Shown here: piece by piece, positions 9,802 to 28,812 of the stretch
Layout: every line of letters begins with the position of its first letter
Numbering within the stretch: position 1 is the stretch's first letter
Source of the DNA: Sphingorhabdus sp. SMR4y
Lineage (GTDB): Bacteria > Pseudomonadota > Alphaproteobacteria > Sphingomonadales > Sphingomonadaceae
Reading direction: 5' to 3'
DNA length: 64,000 bases
NCBI RefSeq assembly: GCF_002218195.1
Contig: NZ_CP022336.1
Span: 2,785,001 to 2,849,000, forward strand
The notes under the pieces: model-generated
The model's database searches: none
Seen by the model: the letters and a program-made list of their open reading frames with translations, nothing else
Told to the model about the DNA's origin: nothing
Program-made: the position numbers and the translations under genes

Positions 9802-10425
9802 ATGGCCACTGAATATTCCGAACATCTTGAGTCCAAAGACAAACAGCCGCGCACCGCACGCGGGTTGAAAACCAAGCGCAAGCTGCTCGACGCCGCGGCG
9901 CTGGAATTTGGCGAGAAGGGCTTTCACGAAGCCTCGATCACCGGCATCACCCAGCGGGCCGGGACCGCGCTAGGCAGTTTCTACACCTATTTCGATTCAA
10001 AGGACGAGCTGTTCAGCGCTCTGGTCAAGGATATGAGCACGCGGGTGAAGAGTCATGCTGCAGAGGCAATGACCCAGTGGCAGGATGCGCTGGAGCGGGA
10101 GAAGCAGGCGCTCGAAGCGTTCATGACCTTCGCCCGCGAGCATAAGGAAATCTACCGGATCATCGACGAAGCCGAATTTGTCGATCCGGCAAGCTATCGC
10201 GCACATTATGAAGAGACCGCCCGGCGGATTTACGAACGGTTGCAGGAAGGCAGCAGCGCCGGAGACTTGCGCGGCGGGCTGGAAGAGGCGCACGCCTGGG
10301 CGATCATGGGGATGAACGTCTTCCTGGGGCTGCGCTATGGCATCTGGTCGGAAGAAAAATCGCCCGGCGAAATCGCCGAGCTGGCCCATAGCCTGTTAGC
10401 AGAGGGCATCGCGAAAAAGCGCTAA
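9802..10425 (+). CDS. TetR-family transcriptional regulator
   Basis: 207 residues. The N-terminal helix-turn-helix is clear: Lys-Leu-Leu-Asp-Ala-Ala-Ala-Leu-Glu-Phe-Gly-Glu-Lys-Gly-Phe, then Ser-Ile-Thr-Gly-Ile-Thr, then Gly-Ser-Phe-Tyr-Thr-Tyr-Phe. The C-terminal helical region would bind ligand and dimerise. It is divergent from the first TonB receptor operon and faces the Rieske oxygenase operon, so it probably represses one or both. ATG 9802 has no strong ribosome site; a TTG at 9766 is a weaker alternative because it lies beside the inverted repeat. Confidence 0.85.
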   Translation: MATEYSEHLESKDKQPRTARGLKTKRKLLDAAALEFGEKGFHEASITGITQRAGTALGSFYTYFDSKDELFSALVKDMSTRVKSHAAEAMTQWQDALEREKQALEAFMTFAREHKEIYRIIDEAEFVDPASYRAHYEETARRIYERLQEGSSAGDLRGGLEEAHAWAIMGMNVFLGLRYGIWSEEKSPGEIAELAHSLLAEGIAKKR

Positions 10426-10494
10426 CCCGTCAGAGCGGGATATCCGCACCGGCGCGGGCCTTGCCGCCGCCGGTGCGCTGCTGTTGCATTCGGA

Positions 10495-11844
10495 TTATTT
10501 GGCCATCCAGGCTTCGAGATTCTCGTGGAAATAGCGAACCCGCCGTTCCTGCCAGGCGAGATAGTCTCGCTCGTAGCCGCGTGAATTCAGGCCGCGCTGC
10601 TGGACTTCCCAGACCTCGACATCCTGATCGATGCCAGGGCCCATCGACACGTCCTCGACCTTGCCCTGAACATGCGGCGCGGGCACGGACGTGTCGACCC
10701 ATTCGGCCATGCTCTGCGAATAATAGCGGTCGGTGCCCTCGGGGAAGAGCGTCATATACCACATGTCGAAATAGCATTTCTGCGGATCGCTCTCGTGCGG
10801 CCGGGCGCGCAGCCAGATATTGCCGTCCGGCTTCAGGCTGAAGGACAGGTTCGGGAAGATCGTATAATGCCAGTGGTCGGTCAGTTGCGAGTCCTGATAG
10901 GCGGAGAAGTCGAAGCCTTTTTCCGCGCCCAGCTCGCGCTTGGCCTTTTGCAGCGCCAGCCGGATCTCGCCGGTCTTGCCCTGCCGGTAATCATCCGGAT
11001 TGAGCCCCCAGAATTCCAGTTCCTCGGCCAGTTGCTCCAATGTTTCCTTTTCGCCGCCGCGCAGATTCTTGGTCGGTCCGGCGCCGGGCATGATCATATG
11101 CGCATGGCCTTCCGGATAGAGATCGAATTTGCAGTGATGGTGCGAATATTCCATCACGAATTTGGTCTGCGGATGGACGAAAGGCACGTGATAGCTTTCG
11201 TTGAAATTGTCCTGGATCAGTTTCCAGTTGAAATTGCCCTCGACGGTGACCCAGTGGGTCCGCTTCATCTTGTCCATCGGATAGGTTTCGATCTGCTCGG
11301 CAATCGGTCCGAGATATTCGCGCAACGAAACGGCATTCTCGTCCATGTTGATCCAGATGAACCCGGCCCAGACCGTGCACTGCACCGGCTTGAGATTCAG
11401 CTTGCCGCAGGGCGAGCCTTGCAAGAAGTCGGCCTCGTCGGGAACCGACTTGAGATTGCCGGTGAATTCATAGGCCCAGCCATGATAGGGGCAGGTCAGT
11501 CTCTTGCCACGGGCATTGCCCTGTTCACCGGTGACCAGCGGCATGCCGCGGTGCTGGCAGACATTGTAGAAAGCGCGGGTCTCGCTATCCTCGCCGAGGA
11601 TGCAGACAATGGTTTCCGGTCCGAAATCGGCGGTGATCCAGTCACCGGCCTTTTGCAGCTGGTCGGCAACACCGGCAATCTGCCAGGTCTTGGTCCAGAT
11701 CGTGTCCCATTCCTTGTCGGCCCATTCCTGCGAATAATAGCGATCCGGGGTGATCGGCGTGTTGCGGAATTCCGGATCACGCAGCTTTTCGGTCGCGGCC
11801 TTCAGCGAGGCGGCGGAGCGTTCGTCGGTCATGACTTTGGACAT
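10495..11844 (-). CDS. Rieske aromatic ring-hydroxylating oxygenase, alpha subunit
   Basis: 449 residues. The Rieske [2Fe-2S] site is complete: Cys-Gln-His-Arg-Gly near residue 95 and Cys-Pro-Tyr-His-Gly about 20 residues later. The mononuclear iron site is visible in Asp-Asn-Phe-Asn-Glu-Ser-Tyr-His followed by Val-Pro-Phe-Val-His. It would insert oxygen into an aromatic or alicyclic substrate in the cytoplasm, needing electrons from a ferredoxin/reductase that is not encoded nearby. AGGAGA precedes the ATG. It is the last gene of an operon led by the second TonB receptor, 49 bases after a SnoaL-like gene. Confidence 0.9.
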   Translation of the reverse strand: MSKVMTDERSAASLKAATEKLRDPEFRNTPITPDRYYSQEWADKEWDTIWTKTWQIAGVADQLQKAGDWITADFGPETIVCILGEDSETRAFYNVCQHRGMPLVTGEQGNARGKRLTCPYHGWAYEFTGNLKSVPDEADFLQGSPCGKLNLKPVQCTVWAGFIWINMDENAVSLREYLGPIAEQIETYPMDKMKRTHWVTVEGNFNWKLIQDNFNESYHVPFVHPQTKFVMEYSHHHCKFDLYPEGHAHMIMPGAGPTKNLRGGEKETLEQLAEELEFWGLNPDDYRQGKTGEIRLALQKAKRELGAEKGFDFSAYQDSQLTDHWHYTIFPNLSFSLKPDGNIWLRARPHESDPQKCYFDMWYMTLFPEGTDRYYSQSMAEWVDTSVPAPHVQGKVEDVSMGPGIDQDVEVWEVQQRGLNSRGYERDYLAWQERRVRYFHENLEAWMAK

Positions 11845-24178: not shown

Positions 24179-24356
24179 TTCGCCCTCGCGACCCGTTGAT
24201 CGGCACGGGCGCCAGTGCCGGCACAGTCTCATCATGGTCCGACAAAAAAAACTTTTCTTCTCCGTCTCATGATGCTTAACTGGGGCAATCGCGGGTCCGC
24301 TCTTGCTCATGTTCCATGTCAGGCAATCCGCGATCGAGCAATGAACGGGGAAGACA

Positions 24357-24515
24357 ATGACGCGAGAGAATAAGCCAATGCCTGCAAGCCGGGACCGGAA
24401 AAGAAAATATGAAAAACCGTCCCTCGTTCTGTTGAGCGACACGACTAGGGTCGAAGGAAAAACCTCTCTTTCCTACGAGACTACGACTGTTGGCCTTAGT
24501 TTTGGGCCGAGCTGA
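24357..24515 (+). CDS. Candidate RiPP precursor peptide, copy 1 (52 aa)
   Basis: A basic N-terminus is followed by Tyr18-Glu-Lys-Pro-Ser-Leu-Val-Leu-Leu-Ser-Asp-Thr and Glu33-Gly34-Lys, the block shared by all three copies. Known lasso-peptide leaders carry a Tyr-x-x-Pro-x-Leu motif bound by the RiPP recognition element. If cleavage is before Gly34 the core is 19 residues with Glu41 at position 8, as for lasso macrolactams. The usual Thr at -2 is Val here. GGGG(AAG) lies 6 bases before the ATG. Conservation of length and frame in three copies is the main sign that it is a real gene. Function is inferred. Confidence 0.65.
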   Translation: MTRENKPMPASRDRKRKYEKPSLVLLSDTTRVEGKTSLSYETTTVGLSFGPS

Positions 24516-24818
24516 TCACAAGCGCGGTTGCAGAGATCGTAGGATCAAGGCAACGTTCAACAGGAATCGCCTGACGGATTACTATCCTGCTTGGGTCCCG
24601 AACCCCATTATATATCCTGTTGCCTTTCTCCACTTATGATGGGGGACTTCCGCTTTAATGCGCTCCATGCACCTCAGTGCGATCTGTCAAAAACGCCTTT
24701 CTTTTTAATATGATGTTGCCTAATTGGGGCAAGCATACGGTCGCACTGATACATGATTCATATTTTAGGTCACGTGACGGGCAATCCGCGATCGCGCTAA
24801 TAACAGGGAAAGAAATTT

Positions 24819-24977
24819 ATGAACCACGATGGGCAACAATCTGTCAGCCAAGTCCGGAAAAAACTATATGAAAAGCCGGAGCTCGTCCTGTTGACCGATA
24901 CAGCGAGTGCCGAAGGCAAGCCAACGGTCTGGACCAGTGAGACTTCAGGTCCTTTCACTTCTGCTGGTTTGAGCTAG
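24819..24977 (+). CDS. Candidate RiPP precursor peptide, copy 2 (52 aa)
   Basis: Shares Tyr17-Glu-Lys-Pro-Glu-Leu-Val-Leu-Leu-Thr-Asp-Thr and Ala-Ser-Ala-Glu-Gly33-Lys with the other copies. The proposed core from Gly33 is 20 residues, contains one Trp (position 6) and puts Glu41 at position 9, again in the lasso ring range; it ends Ala-Gly-Leu-Ser. CAGGGAAAG is upstream of the ATG. The N-terminal 12 residues and the core are diverged from copies 1 and 3 while the leader block is not, which is the pattern expected of a precursor family with a conserved recognition leader. Confidence 0.65.
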   Translation: MNHDGQQSVSQVRKKLYEKPELVLLTDTASAEGKPTVWTSETSGPFTSAGLS

Positions 24978-25271
24978 TCCGGCGACATCACAGCGGCACT
25001 GCCTGCAAGATAGCATGATGACCTGCTATATTCTGAAGTAGTGGCTGAGAACGGACGGTCAGCTTGTTATGCCCCCAAGCACGGGAGTTTCCTCCGCTTG
25101 CGACGAATGTTCTCCGGTCTTTCCTGTCTTCGCGTCGCCTTAACTTGCTAGTAAAAAAAGGGCTTTTCTTCTCAGCGGGGTGATGCTTAAAGAAGGGCAG
25201 GAGCGGGTTCGCTCCTGACCATCTATTCGAGCCAAGAAACCCGGCATTGGGGATGGCAAAAGGGAATGATC

Positions 25272-25433
25272 ATGAATTACAAAAGCCAAATAGCTCCAAG
25301 CCAGACCGTAACTTGCGGCAAGAGAGTATATCAAAAGCCGGAGCTCGTTCTGTTGAGCGACACGGCGAGCGCCGAAGGCAAAGATTATGCACCGTTTGAA
25401 AGCACTTTTATCGGCACTTCTGGTCCAAGTTAA
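25272..25433 (+). CDS. Candidate RiPP precursor peptide, copy 3 (53 aa)
   Basis: Shares Tyr20-Gln-Lys-Pro-Glu-Leu-Val-Leu-Leu-Ser-Asp-Thr and Ala-Ser-Ala-Glu-Gly36-Lys. The proposed 18-residue core from Gly36 places Glu at position 8 and has a bulky Phe-Ile in the tail that could act as a plug; it ends Thr-Ser-Gly-Pro-Ser, like the Phe-Gly-Pro-Ser end of copy 1. The ATG at 25272 is preferred over 25266 because AAGGGA is then correctly spaced. It lies 70 bases before the permease/FG-GAP gene, the closest association of the array with that gene. Confidence 0.65.
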   Translation: MNYKSQIAPSQTVTCGKRVYQKPELVLLSDTASAEGKDYAPFESTFIGTSGPS

Positions 25434-25503
25434 ATAGCCGACATCACTGCGCGCTACGCGGCTCCCGTATGGCCAGTCTATTGGGGTTAACTCCGCCATT
25501 CAT

Positions 25504-28500
25504 ATGAAGATCAGTTCTCCTCGGACCACGGGACGCGATCCGCGGCTGGCCATTGCCCTGCTGGCGATGGCGGGCCTCGCGATCACTTTCTGGACCGGTT
25601 CCCGCTATCCGGCGCTGAACAGCAAAGCCGCCATGGGTGGTGATACGCCGCTGTCGGGTCTGGCTTTCGATATCGTCTACGATATTTTCCCCGACAGTGC
25701 GCTGTGGTGGGCGCTGGTCGCCAATACGGCCAACTGGATCATCACCAATATCAAGGGCATGACCTTTGGCATATTGTTCGGCGCTGCCTTGCTGACATTG
25801 CTGTCGCTGTTGCAGCGACGGCAACTCAAGGGCAGTTTCGGCAATGCCGCCCTTGGCGCTGCAATCGGTGCGCCGCTCGGCGTCTGCGTCAATTGCGCGA
25901 TGCCGATCGCGGTCGGCCTGCACATGGGACGGATGCGGCTCGAAACCACGCTGGCTGCGATGATGGCTTCGCCCACGCTGAACGTGATCGTGGTATCGAT
26001 GACCTTCGCGCTGCTGCCGCTGCATATGGCGGTGATCAAGCTGGTGCTGGCGCTGCTGCTGGTATTGGTGGCGGTGCCGCTTTTATGCCATTTCCTCTTG
26101 CGCAGCGAGACGGAGCGAACCCGGTCCGACTTCGGTGCGATAGCGCCCGTGGCCGAACCGACCGGTGTGACCGGCTGGCTTGCCCGGCGCCTCGCACCGA
26201 AAGATGCCGGTCCGCAGTCGGCCAGTCTGTTCGGAGCGCTGATCTGGTATCTGCGCAATTTCTTGAGCAATCTGTTCACCATTTCGATATTGACCGTACC
26301 GATGATGTTTGCCGCCGCGGTGCTAGGCGCTCTGATTGCCTCATTTTTTGATACCAATGCGATTGCCGGTATTTTGCCCAGAGGGGGCATGCTGATGGTG
26401 CCGCTGGCGATGATCGCCGTGGCCCTGGTCGCGGCATTCGTGCCCGCGCCGATTGCTCTGGACGTGATCCTGACCATTGTGCTGCTCAACATCGGCCTGA
26501 GCGGCAGCTATGCAACGGTGGCGCTGATCGCGCTGGGCAGCACGAGCATCTATGCCGTCATCGTGCTGTGGCGCGTGATTTCGCGGCGCACCGCGCTAGT
26601 GATGTTCGGTGCTGTGATCGCGATGGCTGTCGCGGGCGGAATATTGGCCCATTTTGCAGGCCCTGTCGAAGCGCGTTACGAGCGCGAGCAGGTGCTGGCC
26701 GGAGTAGCGGATCTCGGCCCGATCGCCTTGCCGCAGGCGCCTGCGGCACCGGCTGCGCTGCCGATGGCGGAATTGTCTCGCCGCTCGGCAGCGATACGGT
26801 TGGTACGTGAGCCCCTGTCCGGGCAAATTACCAGCAGCAACGGCAGCGCCATAACGACGAGCCGCCTGCTCTACCCCGCCGCGCGGCAATCGCCTGTGGG
26901 CCCGGACTCCGGGACGACGATCTTCACCCGCTTGCCGGGCCGCGCCCTGGGCTTGGCCGAGGAAGGCACGACCACGCCGCTTTTTGAAATAGACACCTAT
27001 ATGTTCGGCGGCGCGATCGCGGCCGGTGATGTCGACGGCGATGGCTGGGATGACGTGCTGGTCCGTCGCCCGACCGGCGGCACCGGCCTGTCACTATACC
27101 GCAATCTCGGCGGTCATTTCGCACGGCAGGATGTGGATCTCGGCAAATATGAGGCCAGCGAGTTTCTCGACGTCGCCTTTGCCGACTGGAACGGCGATGG
27201 CATGCTTGATCTGATCGGGTCTACCCGCATGGGCGATGTTCTGGTCATTCCCAATGATGCCGGTCAATTTGCTCTCTCCAATGCCGGTACTTTCGTCTTG
27301 CAACTGCCGGAGAGAATTCGCGCGCTCACCCTTGCCTTCGCCGATTTCGACCGGGATTCCAGGCTGGATATGGCCATCGGTGGCTGGGCAAGTGGAACCG
27401 GGCGGGAAAGCATCAGATATGGACAGGCCATCGATGCAAAGGTGTTCATGGTCTGGAATGATGGTCCGGGCACACCCGGACTGACGCCATTGCCAGTGAC
27501 GCCGGGGCAGACATTGACACTGCTTGCGCATGATTTTGATGGCAACGGCTATCCCGATCTGCTCAAGGGCGACGATATTGCCGGGACGGACGAACTGCTA
27601 TTTTTCGGGCCCGGTCGGCAGACCCTGCCAAATGGCGCTGCTACCCAACCCTTTCCCTACCTGCTCAGGACGTCGATGAGCTATGATCTGGGTGACTGGA
27701 ACAATGATCTGGTGCCGGATGTCTACGGCGTGCAGATATCCGATCGCAATCTGCGCGACCGTGACGATGCCCGGATGGGTGCGCGGCATTTTGAAATCTG
27801 TTCACAGGCGGCAGCAGACCTCAGCTGGAACAGCGACGATATCCGTCAATGCTCCAACGAAATGCGCTCCATCGACCAGATTCGGGAAAATGGCCAAAGC
27901 GCAAAATTCAAATGCCGGGAGTTGATGAGTGATCGGGACCGCAGTGTTTGCGCGGCCATGGCCTATCTCAACCAGCTCGAAATCGACCTCCAGAAAAATC
28001 AAGGGACATCCGCAGAGCACGCGTTCCGTTCGTGTCACCAGAAACTGGCAGAGACGCCCGCGCTGCAATATATGTGTGCCGGACTGATCCTGAATCGTTC
28101 GCCGCAATTGAAAGGCGAGGTGCTGGCGCAGCGTCATGTACCGATGGTGGTGCACGGCAATATGCTGTTCACCGGGTCAACCGACGGCGCGTTTCACGAT
28201 CAAGCCGAGGCGCAAAAGATACGTATGCCGGGCTGGGGATGGAACAGCCGCTTCGCGGATCTCGATCAGGATGGCTGGCAGGATTTGCTGGTCATGACGG
28301 GTGTCTGGCTGTCCCCCGGCAGATCCACACCCAATATTTTCTATCGCAATGATCAGGGCCGCTTCAAAAATACCACCGACAGCTCCGGTCTCGGGGATAT
28401 CGCGCCGTCCTACAGCTATGCGCTGACCGACTTCGATCGCGACGGCGATATCGACGTGCTGCGCCCGCCGGAAAGCCTGTCGATGGTGGTGCACCGCAAT

Positions 28501-28812
28501 GACCGGCCTGCCGGTCAGGCTCTGTGGGTCAGATTGCGCGACTCGATCGGTAACAGCATGGGCGTGGGGGCGATGGTCACCATGTGCAGCGGCGGCTCGA
28601 TCACTATCCGGCCAGGCCCCTGCCAGCGTCGCTGGGTGCGGGCAAGCGGGGGCTATATGTCCTTCGACCCGATCGCCGCGCATTTCGGACTCGGGCAGGG
28701 TCAGCGAGTCTCACTGGTCGAGGTGCAATGGCCGGACGGAGAGGTGACGCGCATTATCCCGGCCGATCTGCGCGGCGGCGAGTTGCTGATCAATCGGTCC
28801 GTCGCGCCGTAA
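25504..28812 (+). CDS. Fusion of ArsP-like permease, FG-GAP propeller and ASPIC/UnbV domain
   Basis: 1102 residues. Residues 1-390 hold about eight to ten hydrophobic segments and resemble the DUF318/ArsP predicted permeases, with Gly-Val-Cys-Val-Asn-Cys-Ala-Met-Pro in place of the usual Cys-rich permease motif. After a linker, at least seven calcium-type FG-GAP loops appear from about residue 510 (Asp-Val-Asp-Gly-Asp-Gly, Asp-Trp-Asn-Gly-Asp-Gly, Asp-Phe-Asp-Arg-Asp, Asp-Leu-Asp-Gln-Asp-Gly and others), compatible with a propeller. A helical insertion (about 765-865) carries six cysteines. The last 100 residues match ASPIC/UnbV (Gly-Ala-Met-Val-Thr ... His-Phe-Gly-Leu-Gly ... Val-Gln-Trp-Pro-Asp-Gly). 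No strong ribosome site is seen. It probably spans the inner membrane with a periplasmic propeller; a role with the adjacent peptides is inferred. Confidence 0.8.
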   Translation: MKISSPRTTGRDPRLAIALLAMAGLAITFWTGSRYPALNSKAAMGGDTPLSGLAFDIVYDIFPDSALWWALVANTANWIITNIKGMTFGILFGAALLTLLSLLQRRQLKGSFGNAALGAAIGAPLGVCVNCAMPIAVGLHMGRMRLETTLAAMMASPTLNVIVVSMTFALLPLHMAVIKLVLALLLVLVAVPLLCHFLLRSETERTRSDFGAIAPVAEPTGVTGWLARRLAPKDAGPQSASLFGALIWYLRNFLSNLFTISILTVPMMFAAAVLGALIASFFDTNAIAGILPRGGMLMVPLAMIAVALVAAFVPAPIALDVILTIVLLNIGLSGSYATVALIALGSTSIYAVIVLWRVISRRTALVMFGAVIAMAVAGGILAHFAGPVEARYEREQVLAGVADLGPIALPQAPAAPAALPMAELSRRSAAIRLVREPLSGQITSSNGSAITTSRLLYPAARQSPVGPDSGTTIFTRLPGRALGLAEEGTTTPLFEIDTYMFGGAIAAGDVDGDGWDDVLVRRPTGGTGLSLYRNLGGHFARQDVDLGKYEASEFLDVAFADWNGDGMLDLIGSTRMGDVLVIPNDAGQFALSNAGTFVLQLPERIRALTLAFADFDRDSRLDMAIGGWASGTGRESIRYGQAIDAKVFMVWNDGPGTPGLTPLPVTPGQTLTLLAHDFDGNGYPDLLKGDDIAGTDELLFFGPGRQTLPNGAATQPFPYLLRTSMSYDLGDWNNDLVPDVYGVQISDRNLRDRDDARMGARHFEICSQAAADLSWNSDDIRQCSNEMRSIDQIRENGQSAKFKCRELMSDRDRSVCAAMAYLNQLEIDLQKNQGTSAEHAFRSCHQKLAETPALQYMCAGLILNRSPQLKGEVLAQRHVPMVVHGNMLFTGSTDGAFHDQAEAQKIRMPGWGWNSRFADLDQDGWQDLLVMTGVWLSPGRSTPNIFYRNDQGRFKNTTDSSGLGDIAPSYSYALTDFDRDGDIDVLRPPESLSMVVHRNDRPAGQALWVRLRDSIGNSMGVGAMVTMCSGGSITIRPGPCQRRWVRASGGYMSFDPIAAHFGLGQGQRVSLVEVQWPDGEVTRIIPADLRGGELLINRSVAP

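Follow-up and report, generated by a model that had tools for sequence, protein, structure and literature searches.

Kinase-type lasso peptide systems are known from Paenibacillus, Sphingobium, and Bradymonas (PMC8498205, PMC9266682, PMC10368454). Lasso cores carry the acceptor of the ring at position 7-9 (PMC10368454), and the terminal Ser is the phosphorylation site for several lasso kinases (PMC9266682, PMC8498205). Here we describe three small tandem genes, p1-p3, and the adjoining gene permFG of Sphingorhabdus sp. SMR4y. They lie within a 64,000 nt stretch of the chromosome (contig NZ_CP022336.1, positions 2,785,001 to 2,849,000), called the window in the following. We consider it likely that p1-p3 encode precursors for class II lasso peptides of the kinase type, which would be matured in trans by scattered enzymes, and that PermFG is a membrane partner of this system. 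We compared the locus with 147 genomes of relatives, of which 32 belong to the same genus. G-numbers denote these genomes, G000 being the genome of SMR4y itself, and L-numbers denote extracted loci.

The predicted precursor family and its core signature

The original prediction had described three small genes with a common leader block, followed by a 1102-aa permease/FG-GAP/UnbV fusion, and all of these open reading frames (ORFs) were found in their places (Table 1). Alignment of the three peptides revealed 18 invariant columns, including Y-x-K-P-x-L-V-L-L-x-D-T and E-G-K. The genes are tandem duplicates with a unit of about 460 nt that comprises an upstream repeat: a coding repeat of 79 nt recurs at a spacing of 459 and 462 nt, and a 36 nt repeat is present upstream of each of p1, p2, and p3.

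The profile search that had been proposed for the peptides retrieved further open paralogs in the same chromosome and in the relatives G003 and G016, giving 17 precursors in three genomes (10 in SMR4y, 4 in G016, and 3 in G003). The ten genes of SMR4y sit at eight places, p1-p3 at 2809-2810 kb and seven single genes near 1564, 1573, 1764, 1768, 1847, 1969, and 2778 kb. Stops within the peptide frames, or a leader block confined to this genome, had been named as arguments against real genes. None of the 17 homologs has a stop within its matched frame, and relatives retain the leader block. All 17 frames are open and contain a leader, an acceptor (by an alternative parse for precursor 1764W), and a terminal Ser. 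Within the leader motif YxxPxL, x-K-P is present in 17/17 precursors, while the first residue is Tyr in 16 and Trp in one, and the last is Leu in 16 and Val in one.

We numbered the core from the residue that precedes the invariant Lys (Gly1-Lys2 in p1-p3). By a fixed parsing rule, Glu is present at core position 8 or 9 and Gly, Ser, or Ala at core position 1 in 16 of the 17 precursors. In 1764W, the rule misplaces the core by two residues, and an acidic acceptor also fits when the second Gly-Lys is taken as the core start. Over 100,000 shuffles, the acceptor-position count averaged 2.85 and never exceeded 11, compared to the observed 16 for the 17 precursors. The genes p1-p3 had been picked without a core criterion and show Glu8, Glu9, and Glu8. 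The view of p1-p3 as precursors resembling those of ribosomally synthesized and post-translationally modified peptides (RiPPs), with a leader motif of the RiPP recognition element (RRE) type, is supported; the lasso core signature, which they carry in addition, had been overlooked.

Some features of the family weigh against the lasso assignment. The usual Thr at position -2 is missing in p1-p3 (Val, Ala, and Ala), and it is found in only 10 of the 17 precursors (with Ala in three, Val in two, and Ser in two) when the second Gly-Lys is used for 1764W, or in nine by the rule. The precursors beyond p1-p3 were selected by profiles that include cores, which limits the independence of the core-signature test. 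Weaker profile matches were also obtained in genus members that lack the machinery, namely in G008 (E = 0.036) and in G029 (E = 0.001), where the match is a TDALLTSLFRAS peptide. Since they have no acceptor at 7-9, the TDALLTSLFRAS peptide and a copy in G004 were excluded from the precursor counts. As for the terminal Ser, the kinase BsfK phosphorylates Ser3 of the ring and not the last Ser (PMC10368454).

A leader-bearing peptide with the near-invariant end EIHEKTDALLTSLFRAS and without a ring acceptor is encoded at L121:4953-5081 (G000:C1:3100953-3101078). It is present in 4/32 genus genomes, namely in those three that also have the lasso cyclase C and in G029 (89% complete, 190 contigs), and is possibly a decoy or a regulator. 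By eye, an element similar to the upstream repeat D2 was seen at p1-p3, at the G016 pair and, less clearly, at two other precursors, but not at the rest, and a promoter motif common to all scattered precursors was set aside.

Table 1. Positions of the features within the window.
Feature	Position	Strand	Basis or remark
p1, predicted lasso precursor	24357..24515	+	52-aa ORF; alignment of the three peptides; core parse
p1, predicted core GKTSLSYETTTVGLSFGPS	24456-24512		Glu8, Val at -2
p2, predicted lasso precursor	24819..24977	+	52-aa ORF; core parse
p2, predicted core GKPTVWTSETSGPFTSAGLS	24915-24974		Glu9, Ala at -2
p3, predicted lasso precursor	25266..25433	+	55-aa ORF (53 aa from second ATG, 25272); core parse; G016 ortholog
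p3, predicted core GKDYAPFESTFIGTSGPS	25377-25430		Glu8, Ala at -2
Upstream repeat D2	copy 1 24244..24279; copy 2 24688-24723; copy 3 25155-25190	+	repeat comparison
Upstream repeat D3	copy 1 24317..24352; copy 2 24775-24810	+	repeat comparison
permFG	25504..28812	+	1102 aa; ArsP_1-type permease aa 115-384, FG-GAP from about aa 500, UnbV_ASPIC aa 1020-1084

Lasso enzymes elsewhere in the chromosome

Within the 64-kb window, tblastn with 26 lasso enzyme queries detected no lasso enzyme (best E = 0.013), in agreement with the earlier statement that the window holds no cyclase, protease, or RRE. Genes for a kinase, a sulfotransferase, an ATP-grasp protein, the cyclase C, B1, and B2 are located together at 1715-1721 kb of the same chromosome (locus L060). 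The B2 gene at 1720.8 kb is the only one of this genome over the cut-off. Both B1 and B2 exceed the NCBIfam lasso cut-offs, and for B1 there are related lasso B1 proteins whose structures have been solved (9x90, 5v1u). The enzymes contain candidate catalytic motifs, with His, G-x-G-x-GKS, and Asp-Asp in the HprK-like kinase. A third site, at 3196.7-3199.7 kb, has the genes of an ABC protein, a candidate exporter, together with that of a nucleotidyltransferase (NTP_transf_5); both have relatives inside lasso clusters of other genomes.

The suggestion of a new RiPP system was thus too strong: together with the core signature, the B1, B2, and C genes of this chromosome indicate lasso peptides of the known kinase type. 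These genes outside the window were also the reason to set aside a RiPP class that would be new and lack lasso enzymes. Of the two options that had been offered for the missing enzymes, action in trans is the better supported.

A second small lasso-type locus at 1763-1768 kb (within L119, G000:C1:1762-1774 kb) contains genes for a W-type precursor, GT8, an Asp/Asn hydroxylase, a kinase, B1, and a sulfotransferase. A Y-type precursor lies farther along; neither C nor B2 was found at L119. Some genes beyond it look phage-like by eye. Next to the enzyme locus, a gene for a TonB-dependent receptor (Pfam) and, by eye, TonB- and ExbD-like genes are present (L060:583-4135). Genes of similar appearance adjoin the enzyme locus in L116, and an ExbD-like one is seen in L118.

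In a clustered biosynthetic gene cluster, the precursor adjoins its enzymes, and this was not found here. No precursor was detected beside L060 by profile, eye, or pattern, although precursors missed by profiles are possible. The distance from the B2 or C genes to the nearest precursor found by profile is 43 kb in SMR4y, 96 kb in G003, and more than 0.8 Mb in G016. G033, a member of the same family, has a precursor in cis to its genes for kinase, sulfotransferase, B1, B2, and C, and the dispersal may therefore be derived.

Across the genus, the parts occur together. Matches to C above 1000 bits were obtained in 3/32 genus genomes, and precursors at E ≤ 1e-8 were found in the same three and, as a poor copy that lacks an acceptor at 7-9, in G004 (67% complete). 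Fisher's test for C versus precursors among the genus genomes gave p = 8e-4, with G004 scored as precursor-bearing. Orthologs of the nucleotidyltransferase are confined to the same 3/32 genomes as C. The ABC protein reached 194-199 bits over residues 37-587 in these three and at most 134 bits in four genus controls. B2 is distributed more widely in the genus and is also present in G002 and G025. As to the co-occurrence with lasso genes, whose scoring had been called for, C, nucleotidyltransferase, and precursors coincide in three genus genomes, the poor G004 copy aside, which counts in favor of the lasso reading.

Other findings on the enzymes argue in the opposite direction. For C, the lasso cyclase model is the best NCBIfam match, but the score of 239.7 compares to a curated cut-off of 525. 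The HprK-like kinase passed Pfam Hpr_kinase_C (35.1 over 33.3) and scored 38.3 versus a cut-off of 200 for NCBIfam HprK. Both proteins are divergent, as these scores are far below the NCBIfam cut-offs. Because the three genomes belong to one genus, the co-occurrence of enzymes and precursors does not represent three independent events. Furthermore, the cyclase gene of G003 is split in the assembly. Its pieces (L117, about 10361-10625, and L118:2-349, both on C2) have at least 60 identical bases in common, and one of them lies at a contig start; either a large element was inserted or this is an assembly effect.

These data allowed us to weigh whether the peptides are instead non-lasso RiPPs, or unprocessed leader peptides that are modified by another, unseen enzyme. 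The lack of lasso enzymes in the window and the non-Thr residues at -2 would fit this, and the leader can carry something else, because the conserved, acceptor-less TDALLTSLFRAS peptide shares it in the same genomes. We regard this explanation as improbable: 16 or 17 of the 17 precursors have the acceptor in position, all have the terminal Ser, C and the nucleotidyltransferase co-occur with the precursors, and B2 is present in the same three genomes (besides G002 and G025). For other lasso precursors, Ile at -2 was proven and Ile, Val, or Ala were predicted, Ile and Val in Sphingomonadales among others (PMC10368454); Thr at this position is thus not an absolute feature.

It is just as improbable that maturation has ceased and that the scattered precursors are remnants, now in decay, of a lasso pathway whose genes were formerly clustered. 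The dispersal itself, the G004 copy without an acceptor, and the split cyclase gene of G003 would agree with decay; the 17 open frames with leader, acceptor, and terminal Ser would not. We also compared the DNA of ortholog pairs (identities include gap columns). For p3 and its G016 ortholog, identity was 94% in the leader block, 91% in the downstream non-coding DNA, 78% upstream, and 60% in the core. The 1847 kb precursor and its G003 counterpart showed 76%, 61%, 67%, and 56%, respectively. Diversification of the core with the leader kept is clear in the p3/G016 pair, in which conservation of the leader is no lower than that of the flanking non-coding DNA and the core alone diverges, and weak in the second pair. 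The pattern of the p3/G016 pair fits selection better than decay.

For maturation of p1-p3 as lasso peptides in trans we infer the following route. The leader Y-x-K-P-x-L would be bound by the RRE protein B1, which is encoded 1.09 Mb away, and the HprK-like kinase encoded beside B1 would phosphorylate a Ser residue, with the terminal Ser as the most likely site. Cleavage before Gly1 would be the task of B2, and C would close a ring of 8 or 9 residues onto Glu8/9. The nucleotidyltransferase from a third place may then decorate the product, and the ABC exporter encoded there may export it. About ten precursors across the chromosome probably share this B2 and this C, so that one enzyme set would make a library of cores in trans. 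PermFG would act as membrane partner of the p1-p3 products and most likely moves or binds them at the inner membrane or in the periplasm.

PermFG and its linkage to lasso genes

The permFG gene starts 70 nt after the stop codon of p3. ArsP_1 (40.2 bits versus a Pfam gathering cut-off of 32.3), FG-GAP repeats, and UnbV_ASPIC were each detected above their Pfam cut-offs. Among solved structures, a family profile of 49 sequences matched integrin alpha chains as well as cartilage acidic protein 1 (CRTAC1; 9etn, E = 2.4e-27). By hydropathy, the first 386 residues contain ten hydrophobic stretches that overlap in part; since none follows, the propeller part is probably outside the cytoplasm. PermFG would be a product-specific transporter or binder rather than a biosynthetic enzyme.

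We collected relatives of PermFG from a genome collection (the best 80 of 254). The tree contained 78 rows, with L148, L150, L157, and L168 left out for want of a full frame, and the permFG gene of G070 was left out of the alignments due to an internal stop codon. L125/L126, L128/L175, and L162/L196 share contigs, some loci are cut at contig ends, and L132, L134, L153, and L130 correspond to G099, G078, G071, and G092 of the other genome set. Locus counts are therefore not counts of independent events, as several loci come from one contig or recur in both sets.

In 15 of the 19 closest relatives (L122-L138, L153, L161), kinase and cyclase genes are present within 10 kb of permFG, which bears out the original view of the permease/FG-GAP gene as a meaningful neighbor. 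The others comprise L126, with C only, and L130, L134, and L135, with neither; the genomes of L130 and L134 (G092 and G078) have lasso genes elsewhere. Among farther relatives, matches to kinase and cyclase were found near permFG in L147 (Verrucomicrobiia), L193 and L196 (Bacteroidota), and L175, the cyclase match in L193 being a fragment at the locus edge, and a cyclase is nearby in L162 and L167. A quick tree placed 16 lasso-linked rows (the 15 and L126), 3 others, and two rows of the SMR4y type in one clade of 21 rows (SH-aLRT 100). The lasso label, given to 22 rows including the cyclase-only loci L126, L162, and L167, was clustered more tightly than in all 500 shuffles. L170 is labeled as having none, and an ABC relative and a possible W-type precursor are nearby.

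The linkage was also visible in the genomes of the relatives. PermFG is encoded in 7/147 of them, and lasso B2 was present in 7/7 of these versus 24/140 of the remaining genomes (Fisher p = 1e-5). In 14 database loci we examined the position of the precursor relative to permFG. It lies about 100-130 nt upstream in L124, L125, and L161 (70 nt in the window), 98 nt downstream in L131, and at least 1 kb off in the 10 other loci. One precursor pattern applied to database loci required a terminal Ser, and hence its matches are no evidence for that residue.

Could PermFG be an incidental neighbor, a permease of the ArsP type that has a function of its own and came to lie beside the precursors by chance in an ancestor of G000 and G016? 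Most distant homologs lack a lasso enzyme within 10 kb, as do 54/78 tree rows by tblastn, and 28 unlinked rows form one mostly alphaproteobacterial clade beside other conserved genes. G003 retains the machinery and a syntenic precursor without permFG, and permFG is thus not needed for having a lasso system. These findings count against a partner role. The kinase and cyclase near the closest homologs, the recurrence of this arrangement in Bacteroidota and Verrucomicrobiota, the B2 distribution, and the identical precursor-permFG order in L124, L125, and L161 make an incidental neighbor unlikely. From these comparisons we conclude that PermFG is probably not a chance neighbor of the precursors.

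Several further observations were made around permFG and its relatives. In G003, a 407-aa protein without a Pfam or NCBIfam match (L054:9144-10367) is encoded after the precursor, at the place of permFG in G000 and G016. In Aurantiacibacter zhengii (L129:13270-14757), a gene resembling vanadium haloperoxidases (VCPO_2nd, PAP2) overlaps the frame of permFG. In a large permFG clade without linkage to lasso enzymes (L154-L201; Roseobacter, Maricaulis, and others), the neighbors in many members are genes for a conserved, secreted-looking protein of 146 aa and for a protein of 398 aa, neither with a Pfam match, and for a Sel1-repeat protein. Pseudopilin-like genes were also seen by eye in some members of this clade.

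With respect to function, PermFG may instead sense, import, or act as receptor for the mature lasso peptide, which might carry a bound substance, with the ABC protein alone responsible for export. Export would already be covered, because SMR4y has a candidate ABC exporter and related ABC genes are present in lasso loci that contain permFG (such as L124, L128, L132, L136, L138, L161), and the propeller is related to CRTAC1 and integrin alpha. The best NCBIfam matches of the permease part, however, are the efflux families SaoE (30.4 bits, cut-off 325) and SO_0444 (19.5 bits, cut-off 300), both far below their cut-offs. We consider such a role a realistic option, though short of probable. The proposal that PermFG simply replaces the ABC exporter was weakened by the candidate ABC exporter in trans and its relatives in several permFG-containing clusters.

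Returning to PermFG as membrane partner of p1-p3, a broader reading may apply, although we put it slightly below an even chance: a dispersed lasso system in which one set of core enzymes and one nucleotidyltransferase-exporter pair would serve some ten orphan precursors with diversifying cores, joined by a so far unrecognized class of partners (permease plus CRTAC1-like propeller) that recur in lasso clusters, ranging from Sphingomonadales to Bacteroidota, and would serve as transporters or receptors of phosphorylated lasso peptides.

Comparison with known systems

Among the matches listed from open PubMed Central text, there was no description of scattered lasso precursors or of PermFG. No co-mention of lasso peptide and UnbV was found in this text, and lasso peptide and FG-GAP are mentioned together in PMC10368454 only, which reports an FG-GAP repeat protein at the border of the cluster as presumably not involved. 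The chemistry is thus known and the dispersed architecture unusual, and the partner protein is apparently undescribed. Lasso searches based on cyclase neighborhoods would miss such orphan precursors, which a profile of leader plus core can detect. An enzyme set that does accept ten natural cores would be a ready-made tolerant lasso maker. A conserved membrane or periplasmic partner beside the precursors offers a direct genetic handle on the purpose of phosphorylated lasso peptides, and the frequent association of the PermFG family with lasso genes suggests an overlooked partner in lasso chemistry.

The closest known systems are the kinase-type lasso peptides, that is, paeninodin with PadeK, SyanK of Sphingobium yanoikuyae, pseudomycoidin, and BsfK of Bradymonas. 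They share with the SMR4y system the YxxPxL leader, split B1/B2, and an HprK-like kinase (PMC8498205, PMC9266682, PMC10368454), as well as precursors that end in Ser, which is the target of PadeK, ThcoK, SyanK, and PsmK. A nucleotidyltransferase and an ABC exporter also occur there, and a sulfotransferase in some Firmicutes clusters. These systems form one cluster including the precursor, whereas SMR4y has its core enzymes, its pair of nucleotidyltransferase and exporter, and about ten precursors at separate places. In contrast to BsfK, which acts on Ser3 (PMC10368454), the terminal Ser is the favored candidate for the phosphorylation site here. A lasso tailoring gene acting from outside the cluster is known for the citrulassins, where it encodes PAD (PMC12971885); there a single tailoring enzyme is detached, while precursors, core enzymes, and exporter are mutually separated in SMR4y. 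Prochlorosins, with the promiscuous ProcM and several precursors, provide an analogy only, being lanthipeptides with different enzymes and a different leader (PMC10783134). PermFG holds the parts of both ArsP_1 permeases and CRTAC1-type FG-GAP/UnbV proteins, and it differs from either in fusing the two and in its linkage to lasso clusters.

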